Origin: Citrus sinensis
Taxonomy: Eukaryota > Streptophyta > Magnoliopsida > Sapindales > Rutaceae
Length of the DNA: 64,000 nt
Assembly: GCF_022201045.2 (NCBI RefSeq)
Contig: NC_068563.1
Span: 13,613,001 to 13,677,000 of the forward strand
Direction: 5' to 3'
The notes beneath the pieces were generated by a model. That model did no database searches. It was not told where the DNA came from and saw only the letters and a list, made by a program, of their open reading frames with translations. The number at the start of each line of letters is the position of its first letter. The first letter of the stretch is position 1. Positions 13,275 to 64,000 of this stretch are shown here, piece after piece. The position numbers and the translations under genes are program-made.

Positions 13275-13995
13275 AGCAATAACATAATTCCTGCACTTCT
13301 GCACTTTAAAGAATTCCAAAATTCCAGTAGCATAACAATTTCTGCACTTTCCAGAATTCCAGTACAATAACAGAATTTCTGCACTTCTGCACTTTAAACA
13401 ATTTCTGCACTTTCCAGTAGCATAATAATTTCTGCACTTCTGCAGTTTAAATAATTCCAGAATTCCAGTAACATAACAATTTCTGCACTTTCCAGAATTC
13501 CAGTACAATAACAGAATTTCTGCACTTCTGCACTTTAAACAATTTCTTCACTTCTGCACTTTAAATAATTCCAGAAGTCCAGTAACATAACAATTTCTGT
13601 ACTTTCCAGAATTCCAGTACAATAACAGAATTTCTGCACTTCTGCACTTTAAACAATTTTTGCACTTTCCAGTAGCATAACAATTTATGCACTTATGCAC
13701 TTTAAATAATTCCAGAAGTCCAGTAACATAACAATTTCTGTACTTTCCAGAATTCCAGTACAATAACAGAATTTCTGCACTTCTGCACTTTAAACAATTT
13801 TTGCACTTTCCAGTAGCATAACAATTTATGCACTTCTGCACTTTAAATAATTCCAGAATTCCAGTAGCATAACAATTTTTGCACTTTAAAGAATAACAGA
13901 ATTCCAGTAGCATAGAATACATCCAGAATTCCAGAATAACATAAAACAATTTCTGCACTTTAAAGAATATCAGAATTCCAGTAGCATAGAATTAA
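13275..13995. repeat. complex minisatellite between the two MULE genes
   Basis: Interleaved blocks such as TTTCTGCACTTCTGCACTTT, AATTCCAGTAGCATAACAAT and CCAGAATTCCAGTACAATAA repeat over 700 bp. The landmark CAGAATTTCTGC recurs at about 13371, 13512, 13626 and 13767, giving alternating 141- and 114-bp higher-order spacing. Minus-strand ORFs reading Cys/Asn/Tyr-rich repeats here are artefacts. Confidence 0.85.
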
Positions 13996-39751: not shown

Positions 39752-42118
39752 ATGGCAATCACAAGCAATCAAAATACAGTAGCTGCAAATCAAACGACCT
39801 TTTCTTTCATCACACCAATCAAATTAGATAGATCTAACTACATGCCTTGGAAAAATCAAGTCCTGGCCTCCATCAGAGGAAATCGACTTGAAGGATACAT
39901 TAATGGAGAAAAGATTGCACCAAATCGATTCATAGCATCATCAAGCTTTGCCGAAACAGCTGCTGGATCTTCTCAACAGATCGAGAATCCTGAATACACA
40001 ATTTGGAGATCTCAGGATCAAACATTACTCAGCTGGCTTCTTAGCTCAATAACTGAAGATATTCTCAGTCTAGTTCACTCATGTACTACTTCATTTGATG
40101 TATGGAAAACATTAGAGAAAAGGTTTGGTGTACAATCTGAGGCTAGAGTTCTTCAACTTAAGTATGAGATGAGTGTCTTAAGAAAAGAATCACTAATTAT
40201 TGAAGAATATTGCTTAAAAATGAAACAAGTTACAAACGAATTGGCGTGTGCTGGTAGTCCTGTATCAGATAGAGATATGTTGCAGTAAATTCTCAATGGT
40301 CTAGGAGCTGGCTATTTGGATTTAGCTACTTTTATCACAGCAAGCAAATTGGATTATGATGATGCTTATGCTTTATTACTCACTCATGAAGCTAGACTTG
40401 AACAAAGTCAAAGTGAAAAACACATGTTTAATGCAAATTATGCTAATATGTCTAACTGGAATAATAATAGTATGATGAATGCATACTATGCTCAAATGAG
40501 ATGTCAAGCTAGGAGAGGAGGATATACAGGAGGTGTCTAGGGCAATTATAATAGTCATTCAAGTGGTAGAAATGGCATGTTTAATGGTAGAGGAATATTT
40601 TTGAACTCTCATGTAAGAGGTTTTCCTGCCGGAACTGGTCATTTTGGTAATCATGGAAGAAATCAAATGATGATGGGAAGTAATAGATTTGGTTCTTCTG
40701 AAAGAGGTTCTTTTAGTAGTACTGGTTTCATTGGTACTGGGAATTTACCTTCTTTTGAATCACAAGCATCCAACAGTGATGATTCCATGAATACATGTCA
40801 GATTTGCTTCAAAGCAGGACATACAGCTGTTGAATGCTGGCACAGATTTGAAGAAAACTACATACCTCAGCCACCAAGACAATTTCAGAGAGGAAAAGGT
40901 TCAAATTCTGCTTACATAGCTAATTATGAACATGCATACATGCCTCACTATCCAACAAATGATGATCCATGGCCTGTCAATAATATTGGATTACAAGTGT
41001 CACATTCTGGACATTCTTGTGTATCTGACTATTCTGGTATACCCTGGGCTGGAGCTGCTTCTGCTGCATATTGTGAAGGACCTGCAGATGAAGGTTGGTA
41101 CCTAGATAGTGGTGCCACTCATCATCTGACCAACAGCATGGGCAATCTAAATATCAAAGATGAGTTTAGAGGTAATGATAAGCTAATTATTGGTAATGGT
41201 GAAGGTTTATCAATAACTCATATTAGTGATTCTTATTTTTCATTCAAGAGTTCAAAATCTAAACCTGCAGATTCACATATTGCACTTAAAGATATTTTGC
41301 TTATTCCCTCTATCACAAAGAACCTAATAAGCATTTCCAAACTTACCACTGACAATAACATTTCTGTTGAATTTCTTGGATCATTTTGTGTTGTGAAGGA
41401 TTTGCTGAAGGGACAAGTTCTAATGCAGGGCATTGCTGAGAAAGGATTGTATAAACTACTGGTCAAACCTTTGTCTTCTACCAAGAATTTTGAGTCATCA
41501 TCTGTTGTGTCTCATAGTCAAGCTAATAAACCTCTGTCAATGTTATCATTCTGTCATCTTGCTTCTCATATGCCATCTGTAAAGTTCATAAATAATCCAA
41601 ACAATTGTTTGCAGAATGGTTTTGATGTATATTCTAATAAGCCTAATAAAATAGCTCTTTTACACAGAAGATTTGGCCACCCAAATTCTCAAAGCTTATT
41701 GCATTTACTCAAACTTCATCATGCTGATAAGTTTTCTCTGAATATGGTTAAATAAGCAACACAACATTTCTGTGAAGCATGTCAGTTAGGTAAAATACAC
41801 AAATTGCACTTCCTAGTTACAAAAATCAAAACCAAATCAGCACTTAAGCTTATACACACTGATCTTTGGGGTCCCTCACCAGTTATTTCAAGAGAAGGCT
41901 TTAGATATTATATTAGCTTTGTTGATGATTTCACTAGATATACTTGGATTTACCCATTGAAGTTGAAATCAGAAGCTTTAGAAGTTTTTAAGCTATACAA
42001 GTTGCAAGTTGAAAACCAGTTCCAAACAACCATTAAGATACTGCAATCTGACTGGGGGGGGAGAATACAGATCATTCACTGAATTTTTAAACTAGTGTGG
42101 CATTTTATTTAGGCACTC
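39752..42118 (+). pseudogene. Copia 3 gag, protease and partial integrase, broken
   Basis: The ATG at 39752 starts a Gag with motifs LDRSNYMPWKNQV, LSWLLSSITEDI and DVWKTLEKRF. Stops at about 40286 and 40538 interrupt it. The frame 40577-41755 carries a Gly-rich stretch, a zinc knuckle (CQICFKAGHTAVEC), an intact protease motif WYLDSGATHH (41096-41125) and the GAG-pre-integrase domain (LHRRFGHPN). After another stop, 41804-42082 has the integrase first Asp (HTDLWG) and second Asp (QSDWGG). An eight-G run at about 42052-42061 then shifts the frame. Truncated at 42123. Confidence 0.87.
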
Positions 42119-42123
42119 TTTGT

Positions 42124-43488
42124 TGTGCAAATTTTAATGTACTCGCAAGCGCACGAATCTATTATAGTATAGACCAATGGTGACGAGTGTCGATCCCACG
42201 AGGAGGTGGATTTTAATTGTGTGTAGAATTAATTTTATAAATGGGTGATTGGATTTATGGTGGAAATGATTTGGAATATGCTAAAACTTAAATTAAAATG
42301 GCGAGAATAAATTCTAAAATTGGAATTGAAATGGCGAGAATAAATTGAAGAGAATTCTATTGAGATGACGTACTTGGGTATCTGGATCCGTATCAACATG
42401 CATCATGGGCTAAATAATCTGTATTAATGCCAATTAAATCATGAGGGGGGAATCCACACCTCATGAACCACGCTCTAATCAATATGGTGCTAAGGACTTA
42501 TCGTGCCAAATAATAATAACCTTGTACTAGAGAGCCGGTGTAACCAAGGCGGTATCTAGACAAGACTATTATTTGTCGACGAGAAGTCAAAACATCCACA
42601 AAAATTAGAGGGGAAGAGAAAATAAATTTACCAAATTAAGCCCATGACACATGTTGAGACTTCACCTTCAACCCAAGCTTGAAAGAAAATTAGCCACTCA
42701 TAATTGAACTAGGGGCAAAATGTGAATTTATTAAAATACGAAGAAAATACAAGATGGAGAGAGAATTACAGAAAATGGATCCCAAAAATGGATTCAGAGA
42801 TATCAAATTAGGGGGGGGAGGCCCCCTTTTTATAAATACATTAAGTAAATTGTGGCCATCAGATTAAAAACAGTTTGGACGCTCAGGATTTCGCCACGTC
42901 ATCAGTCAATAGTACGCGTGAACAGTACGCGGTTTGACCACGCGGATGAACAGTAACACGGTTTGACCCGGGTGAACAGTGATGCGGTTTGGTTGAAAAT
43001 AATCCTGTGTGATGCATGTACCGTACGCGAGATTTTTGGTCCACTGATATGCTGCCACGTCACCATCAACAGTACATAAGAATTTTAGTCCAACAGGATC
43101 GTGACACCTCATCAGTCAATGCCACATCATCGGTCAATGCCACGTCATCGATCCGTCTATATGAACAGTGCCGTGAACAGTAACGTATACAGTACCATAC
43201 ATGTGAATAATACCGTACATGTAAACAGTGTCATTTTTTCTTTTATACTCCTCCTAAGGTTTTCGACCGTCCTGAGTTCAAAAGTGATGTCCGTTTTGCC
43301 ATCTGATCTGTCGTTTATTGTGAAATGACTACGATGCTCCTAAAATACATAAAATACTTAATTAAAATAAAACACACATAATTAAATCAAAAGAATGTTA
43401 AATTCATAAAAGTAAAGGTGTTAGTAAAACTTGTAGTGTAAAATGATGATTTTCTCCTTTATAAATATACATTTTCTAACACTCAACA
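42124..43488 (-). repeat. 3' LTR of Athila element A
   Basis: 1365 bp; on the minus strand TGTTGAGTGTTAG ... TTTGCACA. It is matched end to end by the LTR of element B (52698-53723 plus 60624-60979). The plus-strand words CGCAAGCGCACGAATC and TCGATCCCACGAGG near the left end are shared. Confidence 0.9.
42829..43150 (-). promoter_or_regulatory. LTR promoter: TATA box with upstream TGACGTGGC boxes
   Basis: On the minus strand TATAAAAAGG (about 42838-42829) is a good TATA box. Upstream of it, GACGTGGC occurs at about 42893-42900, 43053-43060 and 43138-43145, the latter two or three within TGACGTGGC; this is the plant bZIP C/G-hybrid box. Many TGAACAGT words fill the same interval. Element B keeps the TATA (about 53400-53412) and the nearest box (about 53469). 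Confidence 0.6.
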
Positions 43489-45414: not shown

Positions 45415-46083
45415 TTACAAGCGGAGAGTTAAATCTAATTTGTACTTCTTACTGCGGCTACTGTTACCATCATTATTGGGGCGCTCCAACACAAAAGTCC
45501 AGAGGTCTGGCTCCGGTTTATAAGCTTGTAATAGATCAAGTAGCTCATTAGCAGTGTGAGCACAAATAAAAAGTTTTTTCACATTAGAAGGAATGAAATA
45601 GTTTTTTATTGCATGGTTAAGAAATGCGATAAAGCCATCATAAAAGTTATTGACATTTAACAAACTGATGGGTTTCTGGTGGATGTGCAGATGGGCCCAA
45701 GATGCTACTGTGATAAGTGCCTCTAGTGTTGCAAGATCTCCTGGAAGGAAAATAAAAGCATCAGCATGATTAAGCATTCCAGTTATTCTTTCTTGCATAC
45801 CTGAGACGACTAACTCTTCTCCAGTTGATAAGTCAGACGAACTGCCCAATGGTTTTAAGACTCTTGGGATGATGCCTAACACTTGACTTCCTCTTATAAA
45901 AGCTGCTTCTGAGACCATTTTTGATAACCCTCGGTTACCTCCTCCATACACCAAGGGTAATTTTCTCGCTGCTATGCTGCGACCAAGATCTATGGCTGCC
46001 TCAACGAACTCTTTATGTTTGCCATATGTAAATCCAGAAAGCACACAAATGTTCTTGAATTGTCTATTGGGAGTAGCTGCCAT
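45415..46083 (-). CDS. LOG-family (cytokinin-activating-type) ORF inside Gypsy element A
   Basis: 222 residues from the first in-frame ATG (46083, MAATPNRQFKN). LOG enzymes release free-base cytokinins from their riboside 5'-monophosphates in the cytosol. Visible motifs are VCVLSG-like ICVLSG at 12-17, YGGGNRGL at 46-53, VLGIIPRVL at 68-76, the conserved Arg in MQERI (R99), PGDLATLEAL at 114-123 with the conserved Glu (E121), and QKPISLLNV at 136-144. The canonical PGGYGTLEE loop is changed to PGDLATLEA, so phosphate binding or catalysis may be altered. The length matches plant LOGs (about 210-230). Plant LOG genes have several introns and this has none, fitting passage through RNA. It is in sense with pol, after integrase. 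Element B has the same ORF. Whether it is an active enzyme is unknown. Confidence 0.87.
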   Translation of the reverse strand: MAATPNRQFKNICVLSGFTYGKHKEFVEAAIDLGRSIAARKLPLVYGGGNRGLSKMVSEAAFIRGSQVLGIIPRVLKPLGSSSDLSTGEELVVSGMQERITGMLNHADAFIFLPGDLATLEALITVASWAHLHIHQKPISLLNVNNFYDGFIAFLNHAIKNYFIPSNVKKLFICAHTANELLDLLQAYKPEPDLWTFVLERPNNDGNSSRSKKYKLDLTLRL

Positions 46084-46424: not shown

Positions 46425-46982
46425 CTATAGGTCAAGGATAGGCTTCCCATCCAGTTTTCTTATAAACTGGCAAACAGGGTTGTTTATAGTCAGATTCCAG
46501 AGATTATATCGTGCATGCTCTTTCTGGAATAATGGCCATAACTGGAGAATCGCTCCTTGCACATATCCACTGGGATGCGTTTCAAGAGACAAATGGATAT
46601 CATCCAATGACTCCTTATTCAAGCAATCCCTAATGAATTGAATCTTATCTTCCTTGTTATCAGACACCATTCCTAAAGAACATGGGTTTTTATTGTAACT
46701 CATTCTGGCACACTTATGACAAGCAACAAAAATTCTTCGAGCTCGTCGTTTTCTTGCATAATTTCCTTTACCACAACCAGGCATGTATGCAATAAATTTT
46801 GGAGGTAACTCACCTGCCGATCGTACTTTAGCCTCGATTAACCAACGGATGTCAGCATGTATGTTATTCCTCATGAGTAATCGCATGCGTTCGAACTGAG
46901 CTTTATAGATCGTAAGGAGGGCATTCTGAGGAAGTGAAGGGAATCGCTTGTGAAGCTTCGCTAGAATCTCGTTTCTGTCCAT
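46425..46982 (-). CDS. unrecognised 185-residue ORF of the Athila element
   Basis: Starts MDRNEILAKLHKRFPSLP and ends RKLDGKPILDL. I do not recognise it. It is helical-looking at the N-terminus, then has a basic stretch (NYARKRRARRIF) followed by CHKC and a further Cys, which could bind zinc or nucleic acid. It has no signal peptide and no membrane segment, so it does not look like a classical env. It lies between integrase and the LOG ORF on the same strand. The C-terminal 45 codons are present in element B (63861-64000) with the same stop position, so it is a family feature. Confidence 0.6.
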   Translation of the reverse strand: MDRNEILAKLHKRFPSLPQNALLTIYKAQFERMRLLMRNNIHADIRWLIEAKVRSAGELPPKFIAYMPGCGKGNYARKRRARRIFVACHKCARMSYNKNPCSLGMVSDNKEDKIQFIRDCLNKESLDDIHLSLETHPSGYVQGAILQLWPLFQKEHARYNLWNLTINNPVCQFIRKLDGKPILDL

Positions 46983-47483: not shown

Positions 47484-48810
47484 TCAATTCAAATTTGGTG
47501 GGTCACTCAAATTTATTTCGATGTCTTCTCCAAGTGGTTGGTATTCTAGATATGGCTTTAATCTTTGACCATTAACTTTAAACGTGACACCGTTCTTTGG
47601 GTCCTTAATTTCAATTGCCCCATGTGAAAAAACAGTATGAACAATAAATGGGCCAGACCAACGAGAGCGTAACTTACCTGGGAATAGGTGCAAGCAAGAA
47701 TTGAATAAAAGCACTTTCTGACCTGGAGTGAACGATTTTCTCATAATTTGCTTATCATGGAAGACTTTCATTCGTTGCTTGTAAATCTTGGCATTTTCGT
47801 ATGCATCATTACGAATTTCTTCAAGTTCTGCCAGTTTTAATCTTCTTTCTGAGCTGGCTTGTTGCATGTCAAAATTGAATTTCTTGATGGCCCAATATGC
47901 ACGATGCTCGAGTTCCACAGGTAGGTGGCAAGCTTTTCCATACACTAGCCTGTAGGGTGACATCCCAATCGGGGTCTTGAAAGCCGTTCTATATGCCCAT
48001 AATACATCATCAAGTCTTAATGACCAATCTTTTCTGTCTGGCCTCACCGTTTTTTCTAATATGTGCTTTATTTCTCGATTGGATATCTCAACTTGGCCAC
48101 TGGTTTGCGGATGATATGGGGTCGCCACTTTGTGAGTGATGGAATACTTTGTCAAAAGAGCTTTGAATGCTTTGTTGCAAAAGTGGGCACCATCATCACT
48201 TATTATTGCTCGAGGGAATCCAAAGCGCGAAACAATGTTGCTTTTCAAAAATCCTATCACCACCTTGTGATCATTGGTTCTACATGGAATTGGTTCTACA
48301 TGGAATTGCTTCTACCCATTTCGATACGTAGTCAACAGCAACCAATATGTATTGATGGCCAAAAGATGGGGGAAAGGGTCCCATGAAGTCGATACCCCAT
48401 ATGTCAAAAATCTCAACCACTAAAATTGGATTTAGTGGCATCATGTTCCTTCGTGTAATGCTCCCCATTCGCTGACACCTATCACACGAAGAACAGAAAG
48501 TGTAAGCATCTCGAAATATAGATGGCCAATAGAAACCACATTGTAAAACTTTAGTCGTTGTTTTCTTAGCACTGAAATGGCCTCCACAAGCTTGTTCATG
48601 GCAGAATGAAAGGATATTCTGAATTTCACTTTCTGGGACACATCGTCTAACAATTTGATCCGCACAATACTTGAACAAATACGGGTCATCCCAAAAGAAA
48701 TTCTTTATCTCTACAAAGAATTTAGCCTTATCTTGCTTGGTCCAATGCTCTGGAAGTTTACCTATAACAAGATAATTAACTATATCAGCATACCAAGGTA
48801 ATACTCCCAC
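47484..48810 (-). pseudogene. Athila integrase, frameshifted
   Basis: 48810-48280 carries the zinc-binding HHCC region ([17 protein letters not shown]) and the first catalytic Asp ([10 protein letters not shown]). 48263-47484 carries the second Asp (IISDDGAHF), the Glu ([12 protein letters not shown]) and the C-terminal domain (SRWSGPFIV). The two halves are in different frames because a 16-bp word (GGTTCTACATGGAATT, plus strand) is tandemly duplicated at about 48278-48309. All catalytic residues are kept. The N-terminus was originally joined to the RNase H ORF and is now separated by a solo LTR. Confidence 0.9.
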
Positions 48811-48824
48811 TCATTAATTGTTCA

Positions 48825-50274
48825 TGACACAACTTAAAAGTAAATTTTAACTCCCAAGTATAAGAGTGTCTTGTTGTATTATAACTCAGTGAGTCCGAGG
48901 TCAATCCACAAAGAAAAGATTTAATTAGTTTATTTTATTTTATCTAAAAATTGAAATTAAAACTTGAATATAAACAACTTAATTTAAATGAAACTATGGA
49001 ATTGAACTAGTTAGGGTTATGGATCCACTCTTAGAAATAAATAAAACTTAATAAATTCTTTTTGCCAATTTGTTTTAGATTTATTACCCAAAAGATTAAT
49101 TATACAAATTATTATTATTTTCCCTTTAATTTTATGATGGATTAAGTATTTATTGTGCCAAAATTTAATTTGTCTACAATAAGTCAAAATACCGTTTCAC
49201 CATGCCTTATATTAAGATCTTAAGAATTTATTGTGCCAAATTCATTTGTTTGTCTACAATAAATCAAATTTTCAAAATATAAAACATGTATAAAAGTAAA
49301 TAGAAAATAATTTAATTTATAAAATTAAACATAGAATTTGATTAAATCATATTTATTTCTTAAGAGTTTCACCTTCCCCTAACTAATATTATTTAGTTAA
49401 GCATAATTAAAATAAAAAGAAGTAGTAAAATTGAATTACTTATAATTAAAAGAAATAAAAACAACTAAAATTGGAAATAAAACTAATTTTATTAATGAAA
49501 ATAATTATACAAAATATTAAAAACACACCTGGAAATCAAGATTACAAGGAGATGGAGAGAATTTGAGAAGAAGAGAGTTGTAGAGAGATGATCAAAACAT
49601 AAAAATGAGGCTCTATTTATAGAAAAATAAATTCATAATCCAGTGCTTTGCGGTCCATCATAGGCTTCATGCATGTGCTCCTCACAACCCTTAGATCAAG
49701 ATCCAATGGCTGGTCAAACTTCCAAAGTCAACATCACACATGGCATCATTTGACTCGTCCGATTTACCCAAAGAACGGTTGAGATTTGGCGGGTTAATGG
49801 GTGGATCGGGTCAACCCGAATACAAAGATTCGGATCCTCCAACTTGCTTCACCAACCATTGCCACATGGCACAATCATGGCCATTGAATCATGAACGGTT
49901 GAGATTTAGTCAAGATTGCCAGTTATCCCATGCACTCATATCTATTGTAAGCTCATTTCATCATCCAATCAGTGCTCAGTCAATAGGAAAAGTCAACTTT
50001 TTTTACACAAGCCCAATTTTAAGCCGATCTTGACTGATCTTAAGGTTTTCGGACCTCCGGAATCTAAATTTGACCTCCGTTTATCTGTTTGAAGCCTCGA
50101 AGTACGTGAAATTAATAATTTTCCTAATAAACACATAAAAATACACAAAATTAAATATATTTAAAACATAATTAATAATTCATAATATATTACATAAACA
50201 CAAATATAAATTATAACATAAGCATAAAATAACATATTATCGCTTGATAATTAAACAATTTTTAATACTAATCA
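48825..50274. mobile_element. solo LTR inserted in the Athila pol gene
   Basis: 1450 bp, TGACACAACT ... ACTAATCA on the plus strand, with TG/CA ends and a perfect 5-bp target duplication GTTCA (48820-48824, 50275-50279). It splits the pol frame between RNase H and integrase. It resembles the element A LTR in general layout (for example TAAGAGTGTC, TTTCGGACCTCCGGAATC) but is a different family. No internal coding sequence. Confidence 0.9.
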
Positions 50275-50279
50275 GTTCA

Positions 50280-52183
50280 TCTGGAAATGACTCATTCAAT
50301 ATTAATGGCTCTGTAATTGTGTCAAAATGGAGACGAGAGAGGTGGTCCGCCACAACATTTTCTGTCCCTTTCTTATCTTTGAATTCCAAGTCAAATTCTT
50401 GTAAAAGTAACACCCAACGAATTAGTCTAGCTTTTGCATCTTTCTTTGTGAGAAGATATTTAAGAGCAGCATGATCTGTGAATATAATTATTTTACAACC
50501 AATGAGATAAGATCGAAATTTCTCTAATGCAAACACTACTGCTAGCATTTCTTTCTCAGTAGTTGAATAGTTCAATTGTGCATCATTCAATGTCATACTA
50601 GCATAGTAAATAACGTGGGGAATTCGATCAACTCTTTGTCCTAATACTGCTCCTACTGCATAATCAGATGCATCACACATGAGTTCAAATGGTAAGCTCC
50701 AGTTCGGGGCCTGAATGATGGGTGATGATGTCAACAACTGCTTTAATTTTTCAAAAGCCACAATACATGAATCATTAAAGATAAAAGGTACATCCTTAGC
50801 AAGTAAATTGCATAAGGGTCTAGAAACTTTGCTAAAATCTTTAATGAAACGTCTATAAAAACCAGCATGCCCAAGGAAAGATCTTACTTCTCTTACTGTT
50901 TTGGGTGGAGGAAGATTAGAAATGAGATCCACCTTGGCTTTGTCAACCTCAATACCTTTGCTCGAAATGATGTGACCGAGAACAATACCTTGTTTTACCA
51001 TAAAATGGCATTTCTCCCAATTTAAGATCAAGTTCTTCTCGATACATCTCTGCAGAACTAGTGTTAGATGATGTAAACATTGATCAAACGAATCACCAAA
51101 GACAGAAAAGTCATCCATAAAGACTTCAAGGAATCGTTCAACCATATCAGAAAAAATGCTCAACATGCATCGTTGAAATGTAGCAGGTGCATTACATAAT
51201 CCAAATGGCATTCTCCTATATGCAAATGTGCCAAAAGGGCAAGTGAAAGTGGTCTTCTCTTGATCTTTTGGTGCTATGGGGATCTGATTGTATCCTGAGT
51301 AGCCATCTAGAAAGCAATAAAATTTATGGCCTACTAATCTATCAAGCATTTGATCAATAAATGGTAAAGGAAAATGGTCTTTACGTGTGACAGAATTCAA
51401 CTTTCTATAATCAATGCATACACGCCATCCTGTAGTTACTCTAGTGGGTACCAATTCATTATCGACATTCGTAACTACTGTGACTCCTGACTTTTTGGGG
51501 ACAACTTGCACAGGACTGACCCATGAACTATCAGAAATGGGGTAAATGATACCTGCATCTAATAGCTTAAGGACTTCAGTTCTAACAACTTCTTTCATAT
51601 TAGGATTTAATCGACGTTGCATTTCCCTAGTAGATTTAGCATTTTCATCAAGGTGAATGTAATGCATGCAATCTGCAGGGTTTATACTTTTAATGTCTGC
51701 TATGGTCCATCCTAATGCCCCTTTGTGCTCTTTTAAAACATCCAACAACTTACTTTTTTGTTCGTCATTGAGGGATGATGAGATGATTACTGGCAGAGTG
51801 CTTTCTTCTCCCAAAAATGCATATTCCAAAGTGTTGGGCAATGGTTTGAGCTCGAGTTTCGGTGGTGATTCTGATGATGGGATGAGTTTCTTCTCTGATG
51901 GTGCTAGTTGTTCAACTCGTGACTTCCATTTATTAGTGTCCATGGATGGTGCTAAGTCAAGCAGGGCGTTGACCTCATCGACCGATCTGTCAATATCAAA
52001 ATCCAAACCAAAGTGAGTTAAGCATGTCTGTAAAGGGTCATCACTAAGGTTTGAAACAAAAGAGTCATCAACTAATGTTTCAATTAAATCCACATCAACA
52101 ATTCCATCATCTGCATCGTGAGGTTGTTTGGCAATGTTGAAAATGTTGAGCTCCATAGTCATGTTGCCGAATGACAACTGCAT
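50280..52183 (-). pseudogene. Athila reverse transcriptase and RNase H
   Basis: An open frame of about 640 codons. An acidic linker is followed by the [35 protein letters not shown] and the catalytic FMDD at about 51115-51126. The connection follows, then RNase [32 protein letters not shown] and ADHLSRL. The RT itself looks intact. The frame is separated upstream from protease by a stop (about 52200) and a frameshift (about 52295), and downstream is terminated by the solo LTR. Marked as pseudogene because the polyprotein cannot be made as one chain. Confidence 0.9.
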
Positions 52184-52287
52184 ATTTTCAGTCCTGCATT
52201 AAATGTGAGCATCCGCAGTTGCCAAGAAAGGTCGGCCTAGAATAATGGGGATGTGCTTCTTTGAATCCTGCATTGGTTGAGTGTCAA

Positions 52288-52683
52288 TTACAATGAATCA
52301 ACAGGAAAATAAAACTTGTCTACCTGGATAAGCACGTCCTCCACAATACCACGAGGTATTTTCGTGGACCGATCTGCAAGTTGTAACACCACTAGAGTTG
52401 GGTGTAATTCTCCTAGTCCAAGTTTCACGAATACTGAATAAGGCAACAGATTTACACTAGCTCCTAAATCCAACAAAGCATTCTCAATTGTGTGGTTCCC
52501 TATACTACAAGAGATAGTGGGGGAGCCTAGGTCTTTGCATTTTAAAGGAATTTTATGTTGGAGTATAGAACTGACGTTTTCTGTTAAAAATGCCTTCTTT
52601 TGAACATGCATATTTCTCTTTTTAGTACAAAGGTCTTTAAGAAACTTGGCATAAGATGGAACTTGTTTAATAGCATTAAGCAA
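52288..52683 (-). pseudogene. Athila protease and end of gag, truncated
   Basis: Contains the Athila-type gag/protease junction (AIKQVPSYAKFLKDLCT) and retropepsin motif ALLDLGASVNLLPYS, then LQLADRSTKIPRGIVEDVLIQVDKF. Its upstream part is cut off by the LTR of element B at 52698, and a one-base loss near 52295 shifts the frame toward RT. Confidence 0.88.
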
Positions 52684-53723
52684 AGGGATGTTAATGTTGT
52701 GAAAATTTTAATGTACTCGCAAGCGCACGAATCTATTGTAGTATAGATCTATGGTGACGAGTGTCGATCCCACGAGGAGGTGGATTTTAATTGTGTATAG
52801 AATTAATTTTGTAAATAGGTTGTTGGATTTATGGTGGAAATGATTTGGTATATGCTAAAACTTAAATTCAAATGGCGAGAATAAATTCTAAAATTGGAAT
52901 TGCAAGGGCAAGAATAAATTGAAGATAATTCTATTGAAATGACGTACTTGGGTATCTGGATCCGTATCAACATGCATCATGGGCTAAATAATCCGTATTA
53001 ATGCAAATTAAATCATGAGGGGGGAATCCACACCTCATGAACCACGCTCTAATCAATATGGTGCTAAGGGCTTATCGTGCCAAATAATAATAACCTTGTA
53101 CTAGAGGGCCGGTGAAACCAAGGCGGTACTAGACAAGAATATTATTATTTGTCGACGAGAAGTCAAAACATCCACAAAAACTAGAGGGGAAGAGAAAATA
53201 AATTTACCAAATTAAGCCCATGACACATGTTGAGACTTCACCTTCAACCCAAGCTTGAAAGAAAATTAGCCACTCATAATTGAACTAGGGGCAAAATGGG
53301 AATTTATTAAAATACGAAGAAAATACAAGATGGAGAGGCAATTACAGAAAATGGATCCCAAAAATGGATTCAGAGATCTCAAATTAGGGGGGAGAGGCCC
53401 CCTTTTTATAGATACATGGAGTAAATCATGGCCATCGGATTAAAAATAGTTTGGACGCTCAGGATTGCGCCACGTCATCACTCAACAGTCCACGGTTTGA
53501 CCACGCGGATGAACAGTAACACGGTTTGACCCGACTTTGAACAGTAACGCGGTTTGACCCGGATGAACAGTAACGCGGTTTGGTTGAAAATAATCCTGTG
53601 TGATGCATGCACCGTACGCGAGATTTTTCGTCCACTGATATGCTGCCACGTCACCATCAACAGTACATAAGAATTTTAGTCCAACAGGATCGTGACACCT
53701 CATCAGTCAATGCCACATCATCG

Positions 53724-55166
53724 TGTTAACATATATGTTTCCATAATATTGATTTTGATGATAACAAACAAGATTAAGAATGATATATCTTTTAAGCTTA
53801 GATTGTTTTTATTCTTTTTAAATAAATCATTATTTTTACATTATAAAGGTTTTATATTTAATGGAAAAATGATTTTATGAAATTGATTGTTTTCATTCTT
53901 TTTAAATAAATCATTATTTTCACATTATAAATGTTTCATATTTAATAGAAAAATGATTTTATGAAATTGGTTGTTTTTCAAAGTTTATGGTTTAATTGAA
54001 ACATTTTGAAAACTTTGAAATAAACAAGTATTGCTTGAAATTTTGGAGAATGACTTATTTGAAAAGTGTCATAGCATTTTGGGCTATACCATAATTTCAG
54101 AAAGTTTTGGGATTAACAAAGCATTACTTAGAAATTCTGAAATTGGACCTATGTGCAAAGTTTCATAACGTTTTGGGCCGTAATATAGTTTTATAAAGTT
54201 TTGGGGTCAAACTGTAAATTTCGAAAATACTTTCACTGTAGCAATCACTGTAGCAAACGGCTAACCGTTTATTTAAAACGGCTAACCGTTTATTTAAAAC
54301 GGCTAACCGATAATTTCCAGAAAGCATGTTCTGCAAAGTATTGTTAAAATGATGATTCTGCAAACTAACGGTGAACCGTTTACTTAAAACGGTTAACCGA
54401 TTATTTCCAGATTGCTAACCTTGAACCGTTTAGTAAGAACGGTTAAACCAAATTTGTTTTGCAGGTTTCTGGAAATTAACGGCGAAAGGGTAAGCCTAAA
54501 CGGCTAACCGTTTATTTGAAATTTGGCCCAACGGTAACTTTGACCAACCAAAACGGCTAACTGTTTATGGTTAACGGCGAACCGTTTTCTGTCCGACAGT
54601 TTGTAACGGCTAGATTTTCAGCTCTAACTATAAATAAGCTCATTCAAATTCAAAGGAGGTTGATCACAACACAATCATTGAGCTTATATTCGAGAATACA
54701 ATCTTCATTGAGCTTTAAACACATTCTCTCTTCATCTATTCACACATTGGGCATTGATTTGTAATCTTAAATATTGTGTGAGAGAAAAACAATTTGTAAT
54801 CTTCTACTTTGAGTGATTGTAAGTGTTGGGATACACTTGGGTTAAGAGATTGGGGATAATCTCTTGTTGTAAAGGTCCATTGACACCTTGGAAGTCAATT
54901 GTAAGCGTTTGAAGCCTTGGGAGGCTAGCTTAGTGAAATCCTCAAGCCCGGTGTGCTTGGAGGCGTGGACGTAGGCGGGGATTGCCGAACCACGTAAAAA
55001 TCCTTGTGTTTGTTTTCTCTTCCCTTACTCTTTTAATATTGTTCATGATTGAATTTATTGTTTTCAATTTGATTAAGGCAATAGATTAAATTGTTGTGTG
55101 GTTTGCCTAGGATAATTTTTAAAATCCCAATTCACCCCCCTCTTGGGTTGCCTAGTTAGTATTTCA
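53724..55166 (+). repeat. 5' LTR of the Sirevirus-like Copia
   Basis: 1443 bp, TGTTAACATATATG ... GTTAGTATTTCA. The short ORFs at 54163-54363 and 54567-54764 recur identically in the 3' LTR and are not genes. Confidence 0.95.
54255..54636 (+). promoter_or_regulatory. LTR U3: cluster of AACGG/CCGTT words before a TATA box
   Basis: Twelve AACGG and six CCGTT words lie in about 355 bp (54256-54609), several paired as palindromes of the type AACGGCTAACCGTT. They end about 20 bp before TATAAATA (54629-54636). AACGG is the core of the MSA element bound by three-repeat MYB factors. The cluster is repeated in the 3' LTR at about 59707-60088. Confidence 0.65.
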
Positions 55167-55168
55167 TT

Positions 55169-55180
55169 TGGTATCAGAGC
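55169..55180 (+). promoter_or_regulatory. primer-binding site of the Sirevirus-like Copia
   Basis: TGGTATCAGAGC, separated from the LTR end by TT; initiator Met-tRNA type. Confidence 0.9.
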
Positions 55181-55250
55181 GAGGTACTCTTGTATAGACT
55201 TAACCGTCTAGAGTTAAAGATCAATAGCAACCCAAATTAGTTCAACTTTC

Positions 55251-56405
55251 ATGGAAGGCCAATCCACCACTAGACCTCCATTCTTTGATGGTAATGACTA
55301 TCCTTATTGGAAAACTAGGATGAGAGTGTTTTTACAAGCCTTAGATTATGAAATTTGGGAAGTTGTTTGTGATGATTTACTCATTCCTAGAAAGAATGTT
55401 TTAAGTGAATTGGATAAGAGAAAGATGTCTTTAAATTCCAAGGCTATGAATGCTTTATTTTGTGCCTTAGATAAAAATGAATTTCATAGAGTTTCAAATT
55501 GTTCTAATGCTTATGAAATTTGGAGAAAACTTGAAATTGTGTATGAGGAGACTACAAACGAGGAGGAATTTCATGAAGTGTCGAATTTGGCACTTATGGC
55601 AATTGGAGATGAATCGGATGATGAACTTGATGAGGTAAGTGATCCAACATATGATGAATTGTATGATGCTTTTAAAGAATTGTATGATGAGTGGATAAAA
55701 ATTGGTAAAAAGAATGCATGTCTTAAAAAGAAAATGGTAGAGCCCAAAAATGAAAATGAATCTCTATGTGCAAAGATTACATGCCTAGAATTAGAGAATA
55801 AAACATTGCATGATAGAGTTGCATTATCAAATGAGAAATCTAGCACTTCACATGAGCATCTAGAATCATATGTAGATGACTTGAAAAATGAAAAGAATGC
55901 TTTACAAAAATGCAATGATTCATTAAATGAAAAGATTAAAGGACTAGAGTTAGATAATAAAATGTTGCATGATAGAATTGCATCATTTAAAGGTAAACAA
56001 AGTATTTCATATGAGCATGAAAAATCACATGTTGATGAGTTGATGAAAGAAAATGAAGTGCTTAAGAGAAAGAGTAATGAGCTCAATGAAATTGTTTTGA
56101 AATTCACAAATGGGCAAAAGATGTTGGATAACATGCTTAATTCACAAAAATGTGTGTTTGATAAAGGAGGACTTGGGTATAAGCCTTACTTGAAACAAAA
56201 ATATTATAAGAATTATTTTGTTAAGGCTACCTCCACAAATGATCAAATTGTATGTCATTATTGCAATCAAAATGGTCATATGAAGAATAGATGTCCAATT
56301 AAAAGAAATGTGTATTATGGAGTCAAATGTATTTGGGTTCCAAAAGGAACTAAATCTAACATTCAAGGACCCAAGAGTATTTGGGTACCAAAGGGTACAA
56401 CTTGA
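55251..56405 (+). CDS. Sirevirus-like Gag, internally shortened but open
   Basis: 384 residues. The start MEGQSTTRPPFFDGNDYPYW and the motifs RMRVFLQALDYEIWEVV and ALDKNEFHRVS are the Sirevirus Gag N-terminus. After IWRKLEIVYEET the usual UBN2 middle segment is missing and the frame jumps to EEFHEVSNLALMAIGDESDDE. A long charged heptad region follows (about residues 140-300, predicted coiled coil), then a zinc knuckle C-H-Y-C-N-Q-N-G-H-M-K-N-R-C near residue 335-348 and repeated IWVPKGT motifs. The frame is fully open, which fits the youth of the element, but the internal loss probably affects assembly. Confidence 0.82.
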   Translation: MEGQSTTRPPFFDGNDYPYWKTRMRVFLQALDYEIWEVVCDDLLIPRKNVLSELDKRKMSLNSKAMNALFCALDKNEFHRVSNCSNAYEIWRKLEIVYEETTNEEEFHEVSNLALMAIGDESDDELDEVSDPTYDELYDAFKELYDEWIKIGKKNACLKKKMVEPKNENESLCAKITCLELENKTLHDRVALSNEKSSTSHEHLESYVDDLKNEKNALQKCNDSLNEKIKGLELDNKMLHDRIASFKGKQSISYEHEKSHVDELMKENEVLKRKSNELNEIVLKFTNGQKMLDNMLNSQKCVFDKGGLGYKPYLKQKYYKNYFVKATSTNDQIVCHYCNQNGHMKNRCPIKRNVYYGVKCIWVPKGTKSNIQGPKSIWVPKGTT

Positions 56406-56922
56406 ATTTATTTTTGTAGGTACCATAAACAAGGAATGGTGGAGAGTTCCTTGATGAAGCTTGTGGAGATAATCACTTGATCATAATCTAAAGCAAAAAT
56501 AATGAGGCAAGATGATTTAATTGTTTTGGTAATTATTATTGCCTTATTGATTATAAGTGATGGTATTTTAATCTTAGTAAATATTTAACACTTCATTTGA
56601 TATCATAACATTAAGTGCATTAACATGATGTGGATAAGTTTATCTTGGCTATTTACTATATTGAGTGAATCATGATAAATGAATTTGCGAAAGTATGCTT
56701 GTATGTTTACATGATGGAATTATCATTGTGTTTAACATTGAGTGCTTTATCATGATGCATGGTTATATATATAAGATGATAGCTTGTCAACTTATCATGA
56801 TAGATTTGTTTGATTTTTAATGATTATGTAATGCCTAAGCATGATAAATAAGTGATATGCTTTAATTCTAAATCTTTGAATATTTACATATTTCATGATT
56901 GTGTGATGTATATGCATGATAG
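56406..56922 (+). other. non-coding remains of Sirevirus-like pol
   Basis: AT-rich sequence with many GCATGATAAAT-type words and no usable frame, where protease and early integrase would be expected. Confidence 0.5.
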
Positions 56923-57561
56923 ATGAGTTATATGTTATTTCTTGCATTAGAAGTGATCATGGTGGATAATTCGAAAATCATGCATTTGAGATTTTTTTGT
57001 AATGGTTTTGCCATTGAATATAAATTTTCATCACCTAGAACTCCACAACAAAATGGAGTTGTAGAGAGAAATGATAGGTCTATTAAAAAAAAAATGGTTA
57101 AGACCACATTGATTAGATATCATCTCAATAATACTCTCTATGAGCTTTGGAAATATAGAAAACCCAACATTAATTATTGCAAAGTTTTTGGATGCAAATG
57201 TTATATTTTGAACACAAAAGATAATCTTGGCAAATTTGATCCAAAATTTGATGTTGGTATTTTTCTTGGCTATTCAAACACAAGCAAAACTTATTGAGTG
57301 TATAACAAAAGAACTTTGATTATGGAAAAATTTATACTTGTTATATTTGATGAGTCTAATTCTTCCTCTATGGAGAAAGTTGTTTTTGATGATAATGTAG
57401 ATGAAGAGCTACAAGAAGATTATCAAATGATAGCCAAAAGAATGCACCACTTGAAAATCAAGAGGAGCAACATGAAGAAACAAATGCGAAGTAAAATGAA
57501 GGTACTTCTCAAATACTCCCCAAGGAGTGGAGGTATGTTTCTTCTCACCTTAAGAACTTAA
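56923..57561 (+). pseudogene. Sirevirus-like integrase fragment
   Basis: 56923-57297 contains SSPRTPQQNGVVERND, with the catalytic Glu, and the C-terminal features FGCKCYILN and FLGYSNTSKTY. A TGA at 57295-57297 separates it from a linker frame to 57561. The catalytic Asp residues upstream and the whole RT/RNase H are absent. Confidence 0.82.
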
Positions 57562-59175
57562 TTTTGAGAGATCCATCACAAGGTGTAACTACTATATCAT
57601 CTCTTAAAAATATATATGAGTATTTGTAATAATGGATTTGATCACTTGTTCTTTAACTCATCATTATGGCTTTTCTTAGTAGTCATGTTGATTTTTATGA
57701 TCTATATATTGGCATATGTTGATTTTGATGATTTATATACTGCCATTATGTACTTATGCTTTGCTTAAGTTTTGATGATAAAATTTGTGCTTTGATGATT
57801 CCATTGTATTTGATGAAGTTTGATCTTATGGAATCTATGATTGGTGAATGGATACATTTTTGTTTGTGCTTTCTTGACGCATTGTTAAATATGCATAACT
57901 TGCTTTAAATGATATCGAAAAAAAGGAGAAATTCATATACTTCGATATTTTTAAGCATATGAGATTTTTTTTTATTAAAATGTCACATTAGATCTTTGAT
58001 GTGTTTAGTTGTCTTTATTTATAAAATGTGATTGATAATTATGGAGCTTGGATAGTTGATAATATGCATGCCAATTTGGTAAACAAATCAAAACCTCTTT
58101 GCGAAGAGTAATTTTCAAAAATTCGGCATAAACTTGGAATAATTTGATTTCTTGATGATTTTGATAATTGATAATTATATATGCTTGATTTGAAGTCTTG
58201 ATGATTGATAGGGGGAGACAAATATGATATGTTTTTAGATAAAATCTTTTTGGTTAAATTTTTAATTGGCCATATATTTAGGGGGAGCATATAATATGAT
58301 TTTGGATAATATGCATTTTGATTTTTTTTGTCCAAAGGGGGAGACAAAGTAATATATCATTTCGATGTTATCAAAAGACGGAGAATAATATGCATTTTAA
58401 GTAATTGTTTTGATAATTGATATTTGATTATGATGATGATTTTGATGATTTTGAGATATGATGACGATTTGATTACATGGGTGTTTTATATGATAATTTC
58501 ATATTATGAGTTGTTGATTTGGTAATTAATGGAATAATGGGACATGATATTTTGGTGTGATTATTTGTGTATGGAGTTGGCTTTTATCATGATCTATAAT
58601 AATTTGGGAGTAATATTATTAATCTTGTATTTGAGGTAATGCTTGTTGTTAGGGGGAGATTCTTTCAAAATTTCTACTCAAACAACATGGGTAACAAATT
58701 TGCTACTTTTATTCTTTTCCTTTACGTTTTCTTTTTTATGATGAAAGGGGAGAAGAATACATGTTTTTAAATTTATAAAAACGTTTTCTTTTTTATGATG
58801 AAAGGGGAGAAGAATACATGTTTTTAAATTTATAAAAAAAAAAATTTGCTACTTTTTTTTTCTTTGCCAATTAAGTTTTTCTTTTTGATGATGAGGGGGA
58901 GAAAAATCCATGTATTTAAATCATTAACTTCGCTAATTGGCAAATTGTAAGAGCAGATTATATTTAGGGGAGTAATTTGTGGAATCATTTTTTAAATACA
59001 TGAAATGTTTGTCATCATCAAAAAGGGGGAGATTGTTAACATATATGTTTCCATAATATTGATTTTGATGATAACAAACAAGATTAAGAATGATATATTT
59101 TTTAAGCTCAAATAATTTTTGTGGAATCATTCTTTAAATACATGAAATGTTTGTCATCATCAAAAAATGGGAGAT
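57562..59175 (+). other. long 3' non-coding region with serial purine tracts
   Basis: 1.6 kb with no gene. AGGGGGAG-type tracts occur at about 58210, 58280, 58336, 58651, 58745, 58802, 58893 and 59025, the last directly before an LTR-start copy. This array is typical of Sireviruses. A 58-bp tandem duplication (about 58727-58842) also contains one tract. Confidence 0.75.
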
Positions 59176-59262
59176 TGTTAACATATATGTTTCCATAATA
59201 TTGATTTTGATGATAACAAACAAGATTAAGAATGATATATCTTTTAAGCTTAGATTGTTTTT
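58979..59262 (+). repeat. 142-bp tandem duplication across the PPT/LTR junction
   Basis: GTGGAATCATT occurs at 58979 and 59121, and the LTR start TGTTAACATATATG at 59034 and 59176, both 142 bp apart. The left unit has the better purine tract (AAAAAGGGGGAGAT), the right one AAAAAATGGGAGAT, yet only the right one leads into the full LTR. Confidence 0.9.
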
Positions 59263-60618
59263 ATTCTTTTTAAATAAATCATTATTTTTACATTATAAAG
59301 GTTTTATATTTAATGGAAAAATGATTTTATGAAATTGATTGTTTTCATTCTTTTTAAATGAATCATTATTTTCACATTATAAATGTTTCATATTTAATAG
59401 AAAAATGATTTTATGAAATTGGTTGTTTTTCAAAGTTTATGGTTTAATTGAAACATTTTGAAAACTTTGAAATAAACAAGTATTGCTTGAAATTTTGGAG
59501 AATGACTTATTTGAAAAGTGTCATAGCATTTTGGGCTATACCATAATTTCAGAAAGTTTTGGGATTAACAAAGCATTACTTAGAAATTCTGAAATTGGAC
59601 CTATGTGCAAAGTTTCATAACGTTTTGGGCCGTAATATAGTTTTATAAAGTTTTGGGGTCAAACTGTAAATTTCGAAAATACTTTCACTGTAGCAATCAC
59701 TGTAGCAAACGGCTAACCGTTTATTTAAAACGGCTAACCGTTTATTTAAAACGGCTAACCGATAATTTCCAGAAAGCATGTTCTGCAAAGTATTGTTAAA
59801 ATGATGATTCTGCAAACTAACGGTGAACCGTTTACTTAAAACGGTTAACCGATTATTTCCAGATTGCTAACCTTGAACCGTTTAGTAAGAACGGTTAAAC
59901 CAAATTTGTTTTGCAGGTTTCTGGAAATTAACGGCGAAAGGGTAAGCCTAAACGGCTAACCGTTTATTTGAAATTTGGCCCAACGGTAACTTTGACCAAC
60001 CAAAACGGCTAACTGTTTATGGTTAACGGCGAACCGTTTTCTGTCCGACAGTTTGTAACGGCTAGATTTTCAGCTCTAACTATAAATAAGCTCATTCAAA
60101 TTCAAAGGAGGTTGATCACAACACAATCATTGAGCTTATATTCGAGAATACAATCTTCATTGAGCTTTAAACACATTCTCTCTTCATCTATTCACACATT
60201 GGGCATTGATTTGTAATCTTAAATATTGTGTGAGAGAAAAACAATTTGTAATCTTCTACTTTGAGTGATTGTAAGTGTTGGGATACACTTGGGTTAAGAG
60301 ATTGGGGATAATCTCTTGTTGTAAAGGTCCATTGACACCTTGGAAGTCAATTGTAAGCGTTTGAAGCCTTGGGAGGCTAGCTTAGTGAAATCCTCAAGCC
60401 CGGTGTGCTTGGAGGCGTGGACGTAGGCGGGGATTGCCGAACCACGTAAAAATCCTTGTGTTTGTTTTCTCTTCCCTTACTCTTTTAATATTGTTCATGA
60501 TTGAATTTATTGTTTTCAATTTGATTAAGGCAATAGATTAAATTGTTGTGTGGTTTGCCTAGGATAATTTTTAAAATCCCAATTCACCCCCCTCTTGGGT
60601 TGCCTAGTTAGTATTTCA
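59176..60618 (+). repeat. 3' LTR of the Sirevirus-like Copia
   Basis: 1443 bp, matching the 5' LTR at all positions I compared except A at 53908 versus G at 59360. Confidence 0.95.
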
Positions 60619-60979
60619 CATCGGTCAATGCCACGTCATCATCCGTCTATGTGAACAGTGTCGTGAACAGTAACGTATACAGTACCGTACACGTGAATAG
60701 TACCATACATGTGAATAGTGCCATTTTTCCTTTTATGCTCCTCCTAAGGTTTTTGACCGTTCTGAGTTCAAAAGTGATGTCCGTTTTGCCGTCTGATTTC
60801 TCCTTTATTGTGAAATGACTATAATGCCCCTTAAATACATAAAATACTTAATTAAAATAAAACACATGTAATTAAATCACAAGAAGGTTAAATACATAAA
60901 AGTAAGGGTTGTTAGTAAGACTTGAAATGTAAAATGACGGTTTTCTCCTTTATAAATATGCATTTTCTAACACTCAACA

Positions 60980-62871: not shown

Positions 62872-63540
62872 TTACAAGCGGAGAGTTAAATCTAATTTGT
62901 ACTTCTTACTGCGGCTACTGTTACCATTATTATTTGGGCGCTCCAACACAAAGGTCCAGGGGTCTGGCTCCGGTTTATAAGCTTGTAACAGATCAAGTAG
63001 CTCATTAGCAGTGTGAGCACAAATAAAGAGTTTTTTCACATTAGCGGGAATGAAATAGTTTTTTATTGCATGGTTAAGAAATGCGATAAAGCCATCATAA
63101 AAGTTATTGACATTTAACAAACCGATGGGTTTTTGGTGGATGTGCAGATGGGCCCAAGATGCTAGCGTGATAAGTGCCTCTAGTGTTGCAAGATCTCCTG
63201 GAAGGAAAATAAAAGCATCAGCATGATTAAGCATTTCAGTTATTCTTTCTTGCATACCTGAGACGACTAACTCTTCTCCAGTTGATGAGTCAGACGAACT
63301 GCCCAATGGTTTTAAGACTCTTGGGATGATGCCGAACACTTGACTTCCTCTGATAAAAGCTGCTTCTGAGACCATTTTTGATAACCCTCGATTACCTCCT
63401 CCATACACCAAGTGTAATTTTCTCGCTGCTATGCTTCGACCAAGATCTATGGCTGCCTCAACGAACTCTTTATGTTTGCCATATGTAAATCCAGAAAGCA
63501 CACAAATGTTCTTGAATTGTCTATTGGGAGTAGCTGCCAT
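62872..63540 (-). CDS. LOG-family ORF inside Gypsy element B
   Basis: 222 residues, same start (MAATPNRQFKN) and stop as in element A with no insertion or deletion. Nine residues differ (for example KLPLV/KLHLV, QVLGI/QVFGI, ITGML/ITEML, TVASW/TLASW). The YGGGNRGL motif, the MQERI Arg and the altered PGDLATLEAL loop are the same. About ten further base changes are silent. The open frame continues upstream without stop to 63711, but no ATG lies there and that part is poorly conserved, so I start at MAATP. As in A it is intronless and in sense with the retrotransposon. Confidence 0.87.
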   Translation of the reverse strand: MAATPNRQFKNICVLSGFTYGKHKEFVEAAIDLGRSIAARKLHLVYGGGNRGLSKMVSEAAFIRGSQVFGIIPRVLKPLGSSSDSSTGEELVVSGMQERITEMLNHADAFIFLPGDLATLEALITLASWAHLHIHQKPIGLLNVNNFYDGFIAFLNHAIKNYFIPANVKKLFICAHTANELLDLLQAYKPEPDPWTFVLERPNNNGNSSRSKKYKLDLTLRL

Positions 63541-63860: not shown

Positions 63861-64000
63861 CTATGGGTCGAGGATAGGCTTCCTATCCAGTTTTCTTATA
63901 AACTGGCAAACAGGGTCGTTTATAGTCAGATTCCCGAGACTATATCGTGCATGCTCTTTCTGGAATAATGGCCATAACTGGAGAATCGCTCCTTGCACAT
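63861..64000 (-). CDS. 185-residue-type ORF of element B, C-terminal part
   Basis: Partial: the last 45 codons or so before the right edge, ending KLDRKPILDP, with the stop at the same place as in element A. It matches A except for several replacements (YSLGNLTINDP versus YNLWNLTINNP). Function unknown. Confidence 0.6.
   Translation of the reverse strand, partial: VQGAILQLWPLFQKEHARYSLGNLTINDPVCQFIRKLDRKPILDP

Follow-up and report, generated by a model that had tools for sequence, protein, structure and literature searches.

Why does a Gypsy retrotransposon of Citrus sinensis carry an ORF of the LONELY GUY (LOG) family, and is the encoded protein still a cytokinin-activating enzyme? The question is raised by two ORFs found in the tandem members A and B of a 64,000-nt stretch of genomic DNA (the window), each 669 nt long from ATG to stop and free of indels relative to each other. 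The coordinates in the initial annotation are correct, and both ORFs read on the minus strand. Both exceed the curated cut-off of 27 for PF03641 (Lysine_decarbox), with scores of 94.1 and 96.6 bits (Pfam E-values 1e-26 and 1.8e-27), and the closest solved structure in a PDB sequence search is Arabidopsis At2g37210 (2a33; E 1.6e-43). The 19 base differences between the two ORFs, 10 synonymous and 9 nonsynonymous, count the same by hand and by the Nei-Gojobori method, and correspond to dS 0.0705, dN 0.0176 and omega 0.25.

Organization of the tandem region

Along the minus strand, B is represented by its 3' part, with second ORF, LOG ORF and spacer. An LTR follows, and then A, in which protease, reverse transcriptase (RT), RNase H (RH) and integrase (IN) precede a second ORF, the LOG ORF, a spacer and the 3' LTR (Table 1), the latter preceded by a G-rich polypurine tract. 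ORF map, Pfam matches and LTR mapping agree that the LOG ORF has the orientation of pol and lies downstream of integrase, before the 3' LTR, which is the slot originally proposed. A and B had been taken for two elements; two LOG-bearing copies are indeed present, but they are not free-standing, forming a tandem with one common LTR (A's 5' and B's 3' LTR) split by a nested copia element. Since the two LTRs of A belong to a tandem, their divergence does not necessarily date a single insertion.

Table 1. Features of the LOG-bearing tandem, in order of position in the window
Feature	Positions	Strand	Remarks
3' LTR of A	42121..43488	-	TGTTG...CAACA, about 1.37 kb
LOG-family ORF, tandem member A	45415..46083	-	222 aa; PGDLATLEA instead of PGGxGTxxE
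Second extra ORF, upstream of LOG in A	46425..46982	-	185 aa; basic YARKRRAR, Cys-rich cluster
Integrase region of A	47484..48810	-	two overlapping frames (H2C2 zinc binding, core)
LTR of second LOG-bearing subfamily, inside pol of A	48825..50236	-	outer edge approximate
Reverse transcriptase and RNase H of A	50237..52198	-	last residues may belong to the inserted LTR
Aspartic protease region, joined straight to LTR	52288..52707	-	weak Pfam match, below cut-off
Common LTR (A's 5', B's 3'), part after copia insertion	52695..53723	-	
Nested copia element	53724..60618	+	LTRs 53724-55166 and 59176-60618, 99.93% identical
Common LTR, part before copia insertion	60619..60978	-	
LOG-family ORF, tandem member B	62872..63540	-	222 aa
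Second ORF of B, 3' end	63861..64000	-	cut by window edge

In A the LTR runs straight into the protease region, so that gag is missing, and pol is disrupted by an LTR (about 1.4 kb) of a sister LOG-bearing subfamily. It is a damaged, gag-less tandem copy, with an intact LOG ORF all the same. The sister-subfamily LTR resides, about 99% identical, at no fewer than 40 other places, many of which form pairs that flank LOG ORFs at a spacing of about 11.3 kb. Judged against at least 41 places of this LTR, it lies 1.4-1.7 kb downstream of the LOG in 15 of the 150 best-scoring LOG places, and on both sides in 12; 29 of the 41 LTR places listed fall within 10.5 kb of a LOG place, the best 150 of 1560 LOG candidates being considered. 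Another tandem occurs at locus L011, where the LTR is followed by a primer binding site, TGGCGCCGTTGCCGGGGA, which we take to be complementary to tRNA-Asp; A itself has no primer binding site.

Copia-like frames were seen by eye on the plus strand at window positions 40541-42082, ending just beside the 3' LTR of A, so that an older element may in turn enclose the tandem. Positions 13286-13936 contain five overlapping copies of a direct repeat, which are 63-95% identical to a reference copy. Neither Rfam matches nor tRNA genes were detected in the 64,000-nt window. Upstream of the LOG of A, a T-rich tract ends in CTAG; since most of 40 copies have CTTG or CTCG there, it was rejected as the acceptor site from which a subgenomic LOG RNA might be spliced. 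A TCAAG nearer to the LOG of A, kept in nearly all copies, is a lead.

Class of the carrier element

RT, RH and IN of A exceed the Pfam cut-offs, the protease falling below (22.3 bits vs. 24.3). By the order protease, RT, RH, IN and the presence of LTRs, the LOG carrier is a Ty3/gypsy LTR retrotransposon, and the LOG-bearing family probably belongs to the Athila lineage. An archaeal-type second RNase H marks the Tat lineage; no match to this domain was found among the seven proteins scanned, the RH-IN junction of A being broken by the foreign LTR. The Athila ORF-1 domain PF03078, present in 16% of Athila elements (PMC6317226), has 80 matches in the genome. Comparison of 79 of them (all except C3:12695731, near which no LOG place is listed) with the 150 best-scoring LOG places gave three pairs within 16 kb, one in fitting orientation.

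Copy number and independence of insertions

The genome searched amounts to 299.7 Mb in 11 contigs, nine of which, 24.8 to 52.3 Mb in size, contain LOG places. The ORF is found at 40 of 40 scored places, spread over all nine large contigs. These best 40 matches are about 97% similar to the LOG of A, and in 32 of the 40, a sample biased to good copies, the ORF is intact. In a genome scan with PF03641, all 150 places scored, the best-scoring of 1560 candidates, are open and without stops. Elements were also picked by integrase DNA, blind to LOG, at 40 or more places, including A and two copies already sampled; 17 of the remaining 37, making up the lower-ranked part of the list, were analyzed. The initial annotation had raised the question whether members of the family lack the ORF, or hold it broken: all 17 carry the LOG in its slot, 14 intact, two with stops and one with a frameshift. 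Independent witnesses are few in this set, since eight of 16 integrase-picked copies, all intact, are identical to each other.

Local duplication, segmental or in tandem, might by itself have made A and B similar, and the sharing of one LTR by the two is what such an event would leave. Yet the 40 places are distributed over nine contigs, and the DNA beyond the LTR differs in 17 of 17 readable copies (L011 runs into its tandem neighbour), which indicates independent insertions. Furthermore, 47 of 53 other copies are closer to B, in number of differing sites, than A is. B is not merely a local duplicate of A, and duplication as sole source of the similarity is scarcely credible. The LOG-bearing family is multicopy, at least three subfamilies carrying the ORF.

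Selection on the LOG ORF

Retention of the LOG as a cargo under purifying selection, proposed from the comparison of A with B, is supported by the family at large. Variants were counted in 55 full-length ORFs of the family of A (39 LOG-picked, 16 integrase-picked; L036 and L066, both frameshifted, set aside), the LOG-picked copies being best matches to A and the sample therefore biased to intact ones. Variants seen once (private) are distributed among nonsynonymous (N), synonymous (S) and stop changes as 80:35:5, shared variants as 30:42:2 (Fisher p 2.3e-4), the neutral N:S expectation being 2.4-3.3 (L036, a frameshift, left out). Variants seen 2-4 times include N 22, S 21 and stop 2, those seen five or more times N 8 and S 21. 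Private variants fall on codon positions 1/2/3 as 51/33/36, the commonest ones as 7/1/21. When identical copies are counted once (47 distinct), the contrast is 81:39:5 vs. 29:38:2 (p 0.0018). It weakens in the 55 copies upon removal of C>T and G>A changes (p 0.029), and is not significant when the 16 integrase-picked copies are treated alone in this way (p 0.20).

The L050 and L047-type subfamilies are 77-79% identical to A at the DNA level. Between the three subfamilies dS is 0.6-0.8 and omega 0.17-0.24 in seven comparisons, only three sequences spanning this depth; a value near 1, which would speak for absence of selection, is far from these figures. Inside the family of A, omega varies from 0.14 to 0.35 in five pairs. 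In the second subfamily it is 0.34 for L047-L048 and 1.0 for L047-L051 (4 silent, 14 replacement), the latter value being read as decay of L051 after insertion.

Indel-rich flanks around an indel-free ORF had been noticed in A and B, and the same holds for the copies compared to A (39 others; 37 for the LTR). Per kb, the median number of gap openings is 0 for both LOG and second ORF, against 3.1-15.8 for the three spacers and 9.6 for the LTR; the corresponding mismatch medians are 2.9% (LOG), 4.0% (second ORF), 4.5-6.9% (spacers) and 6.4% (LTR).

The ORF might be intact merely because the elements are young, the LOG being a functionless passenger. Such a view accommodates the closeness of the best 40 copies to A, the identity of some of them and the neutral look of private variants, not the paucity of replacements among shared variants, the low omega between subfamilies, or the near absence of indels from the ORF when spacers have many, and is highly improbable. 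The LOG ORF is under purifying selection in replicating lineages, and decays in a roughly neutral way after insertion. Since copies decay about neutrally once inserted, the constraint must have been exerted during replication of the element, and the protein is therefore probably of benefit to the element or to the cells where this replication takes place.

Origin of the element LOG

Four host LOG genes (L052-L055) are split by introns where the element ORF is continuous, their exon blocks being LVYGGG..GGRHVxG, IPKTLxPRE, TGE..FIALPG, GGYGTLEEL..HDKP and VGLLNV. In L055 the second block (IPKTLxPRE) was not found, and some residues differ. Two stretches of contig C7, L056 and L057 (near 1.41 and 1.37 Mb), are related to host LOGs and contain in-frame stops; they are probably host LOG genes, or decayed copies thereof.

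In a tree from which L084, one of ten bacterial loci, was left out, nine element LOGs form one clade (100/100), and a split supported at 100/98 separates this clade and six plant LOGs from eleven bacterial ones. Absence of introns would also be explained by a bacterial or viral source. Such a source is favoured by the long stem of the element clade (1.13 changes per site), by the modest 81/85 with which the plant LOGs hold together, and by the warning of the tree program that the long element and bacterial branches meet. Against this source stand the grouping with plant LOGs, the finding that Arabidopsis LOGs are the best solved matches, and the count of relatives confirmed in viral contigs, zero, 66 stretches having matched the pattern; we regard it as very improbable. 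That a spliced plant LOG mRNA was captured, as initially suggested, is supported by the introns of the host genes and by the plant grouping in the tree, and capture followed by purifying selection is very likely.

Rewritten active site

Numbering of the element LOG coincides with that of the LOG of Corynebacterium glutamicum. In the latter, R99 and E122 are proposed as catalytic, G116, A117, G118, T119 and E121 bind AMP, and the proposed prenyl pocket is lined by M96, H97, K100, E125 and W129; replacement by Ala of AMP-binding and catalytic residues, S19A excepted, nearly abolishes activity (PMC4979012). All three subfamilies sampled have PGDLATLEA or PGDLATFEA where the consensus is PGGxGTxxE. 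Substitutions include G116D, A117L, G118A and E122A in the nucleotide-binding and catalytic motif, H97Q, K100I and E125T in the pocket; M96, R99, T119, E121 and W129 are retained.

Both sets are stable within the family of A, Q97, R99, I100, D116, A118 and T125 being found in 55/55 copies, as are M96 and T119, E121 in 54/55, and W129 in 51/55, the remaining four having stops. R99, the proposed catalytic Arg, is also found in 5/5 of L047-L051. At position 122, 52 of the 55 copies have Ala and three have Thr; among eight further copies, Ala occupies it in L047-L051 and L075, Pro in L076, and Val in L077. The proposed catalytic Glu122 is absent from 63 of 63 element LOG copies read. Between subfamilies omega is 0.067-0.092 in block 92-150, 0.20-0.32 in adjoining blocks, in a test made on three sequences with block limits picked after viewing the alignment. 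The motif block is the most constrained of the three compared, and the altered pocket appears, at the sequence level, to be the part that selection guards. The LOG Rossmann-like fold is kept in the predicted model (pLDDT 79.8, pTM 0.77), the best structural match of which is 2a33 (TM 0.92 by target).

Changes at these sites have to be read with care. AMP is present in crystals of a Pseudomonas LOG chain whose residue at the E122 position is Ala (5zbk; 5zbj has Glu), so a change of E122 alone need not stop binding. Some pocket positions are different in MmLOG (PMC4979012), and wheat LOGs with identical critical residues vary in activity (PMC11593424), so that residues alone do not foretell activity. 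The same variability, along with the kept fold and the retention of R99, T119, M96, E121 and W129, would be compatible with an element LOG still active on cytokinin nucleotides, as phosphoribohydrolase or, like some plant LOGs, as 5'-ribonucleotide phosphohydrolase, which would raise cytokinin or riboside levels and favour dividing, transposition-permissive cells. Given the Ala, Thr, Pro or Val at position 122, the replacement of the phosphate-loop glycines 116 and 118 by Asp and Ala, and the loss of K100 and E125, we hold an active enzyme to be rather unlikely. The cytokinin-activating cargo implied in the initial annotation is doubtful, the catalytic motif being altered in every subfamily sampled.

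The explanation that we prefer, with a probability of about 0.65, combines capture of a LOG, long selection, and repurposing of the protein. A Ty3/gypsy family, probably of the Athila lineage, would have taken up the transcript of a plant LOG gene, already spliced, into the slot that separates integrase from the 3' LTR; the nucleotide-binding and catalytic motif has been rewritten, and the block around it is the most conserved of three. The product would no longer be an ordinary cytokinin-riboside-5'-monophosphate phosphoribohydrolase. It may keep the fold and serve as a ligand or nucleotide binder or, alternatively, pair with host LOG subunits, which would reduce or retune the activation of cytokinin by the host in cells with an active element. 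LOGs are dimers, and the prenyl pocket is common to both subunits across the interface. The specific assignment to either role, ligand binder or partner of host LOGs, is tentative, and we would give it somewhat less than an even chance.

The second extra ORF

The ORF upstream of the LOG shows a LOG-like pattern of variation. In 31 copies, 21 of which are intact, N:S:stop changes are 79:28:12 among private and 23:26:1 among shared variants (eight gapped or partial copies, and that of B at the window edge, were left out). At least 150 copies were found in the genome, 147 of these without stops. Carla_C4 (PF01623) matches nine of nine copies below cut-off (best E 0.0035; 17.7 bits for the ORF of A vs. 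a cut-off of 20.9), Viral_NABP (PF05515) five of nine, and a C2H2 zinc-finger family two of nine. This weak resemblance to nucleic-acid-binding proteins of flexiviruses is a lead, not a family assignment. A search of viral contigs confirmed none of 47 pattern stretches as relatives, that of solved structures gave one weak match (E 0.037) to an unrelated enzyme, and no published account of the resemblance was found in the literature search.

Flexivirus nucleic-acid-binding proteins act as silencing suppressors. The two ORFs could conceivably form a module kept by selection, and directed at the host, in which a LOG pseudoenzyme would retune cytokinin by binding host LOG or its ligands and a basic, Cys-rich protein would act in a suppressor-like way; we consider this speculative and unlikely.

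Comparison with known systems

Two Athila-like elements similar to LOGL4 were reportedly noticed by Steinbauerova et al. in 2011. The initial annotation knew of no description of a LOG in a retrotransposon, and has to be corrected on this point, the LONELY GUY (YgdH) domain being already reported in Gypsy consensuses of C. sinensis and C. clementina, as well as of P. trichocarpa with a looser filter, a result said there to agree with the 2011 Genetica report by Steinbauerova et al. (PMC9289625). The published Citrus elements, listed there among those with non-canonical domains, have the same kind of cargo, and are very probably the same families as those analyzed here. Presence of the domain is what the accessible part of that report documents (PMC9289625); evidence for selection on the ORF, for a changed active site and for a companion ORF is added here. 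In a partial literature search, with subscription papers mostly outside, PMC9289625 was the one paper found to place a LOG in retrotransposons, and no description was found of selection on the element LOG or of its altered active site. That Gypsy elements of Citrus carry a LOG is known already; what is new is a rewritten active site that has been conserved.

An extra ORF of known origin is seen here under strong purifying selection alongside a rewritten enzyme motif. One small protein makes the question of extra-ORF function testable, and a hormone pathway is indicated as a possible retrotransposon target.

Extra ORFs of plant LTR retrotransposons, including the env-like ones of Athila, are highly divergent and mostly devoid of conserved domains (PMC7264820, PMC6317226). 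Unlike these, the citrus element LOG has clear kinship to a cellular enzyme. It shares fold, core length, Arg99 and the GGG stretch with the plant LOGs At2g37210 (2a33) and At5g11950 (1ydh), and is 38-40% identical to them over the aligned structure, but has PGDLATxEA in place of PGGxGTxxE, and an extra C-terminal tail, modelled with low confidence from residue 194. An orchid Gypsy element which captured an AlkB m6A RNA demethylase likewise has an enzyme domain fixed as extra ORF; the orchid domain is active in vitro (PMC9289625), whereas the citrus element LOG has lost key catalytic residues.
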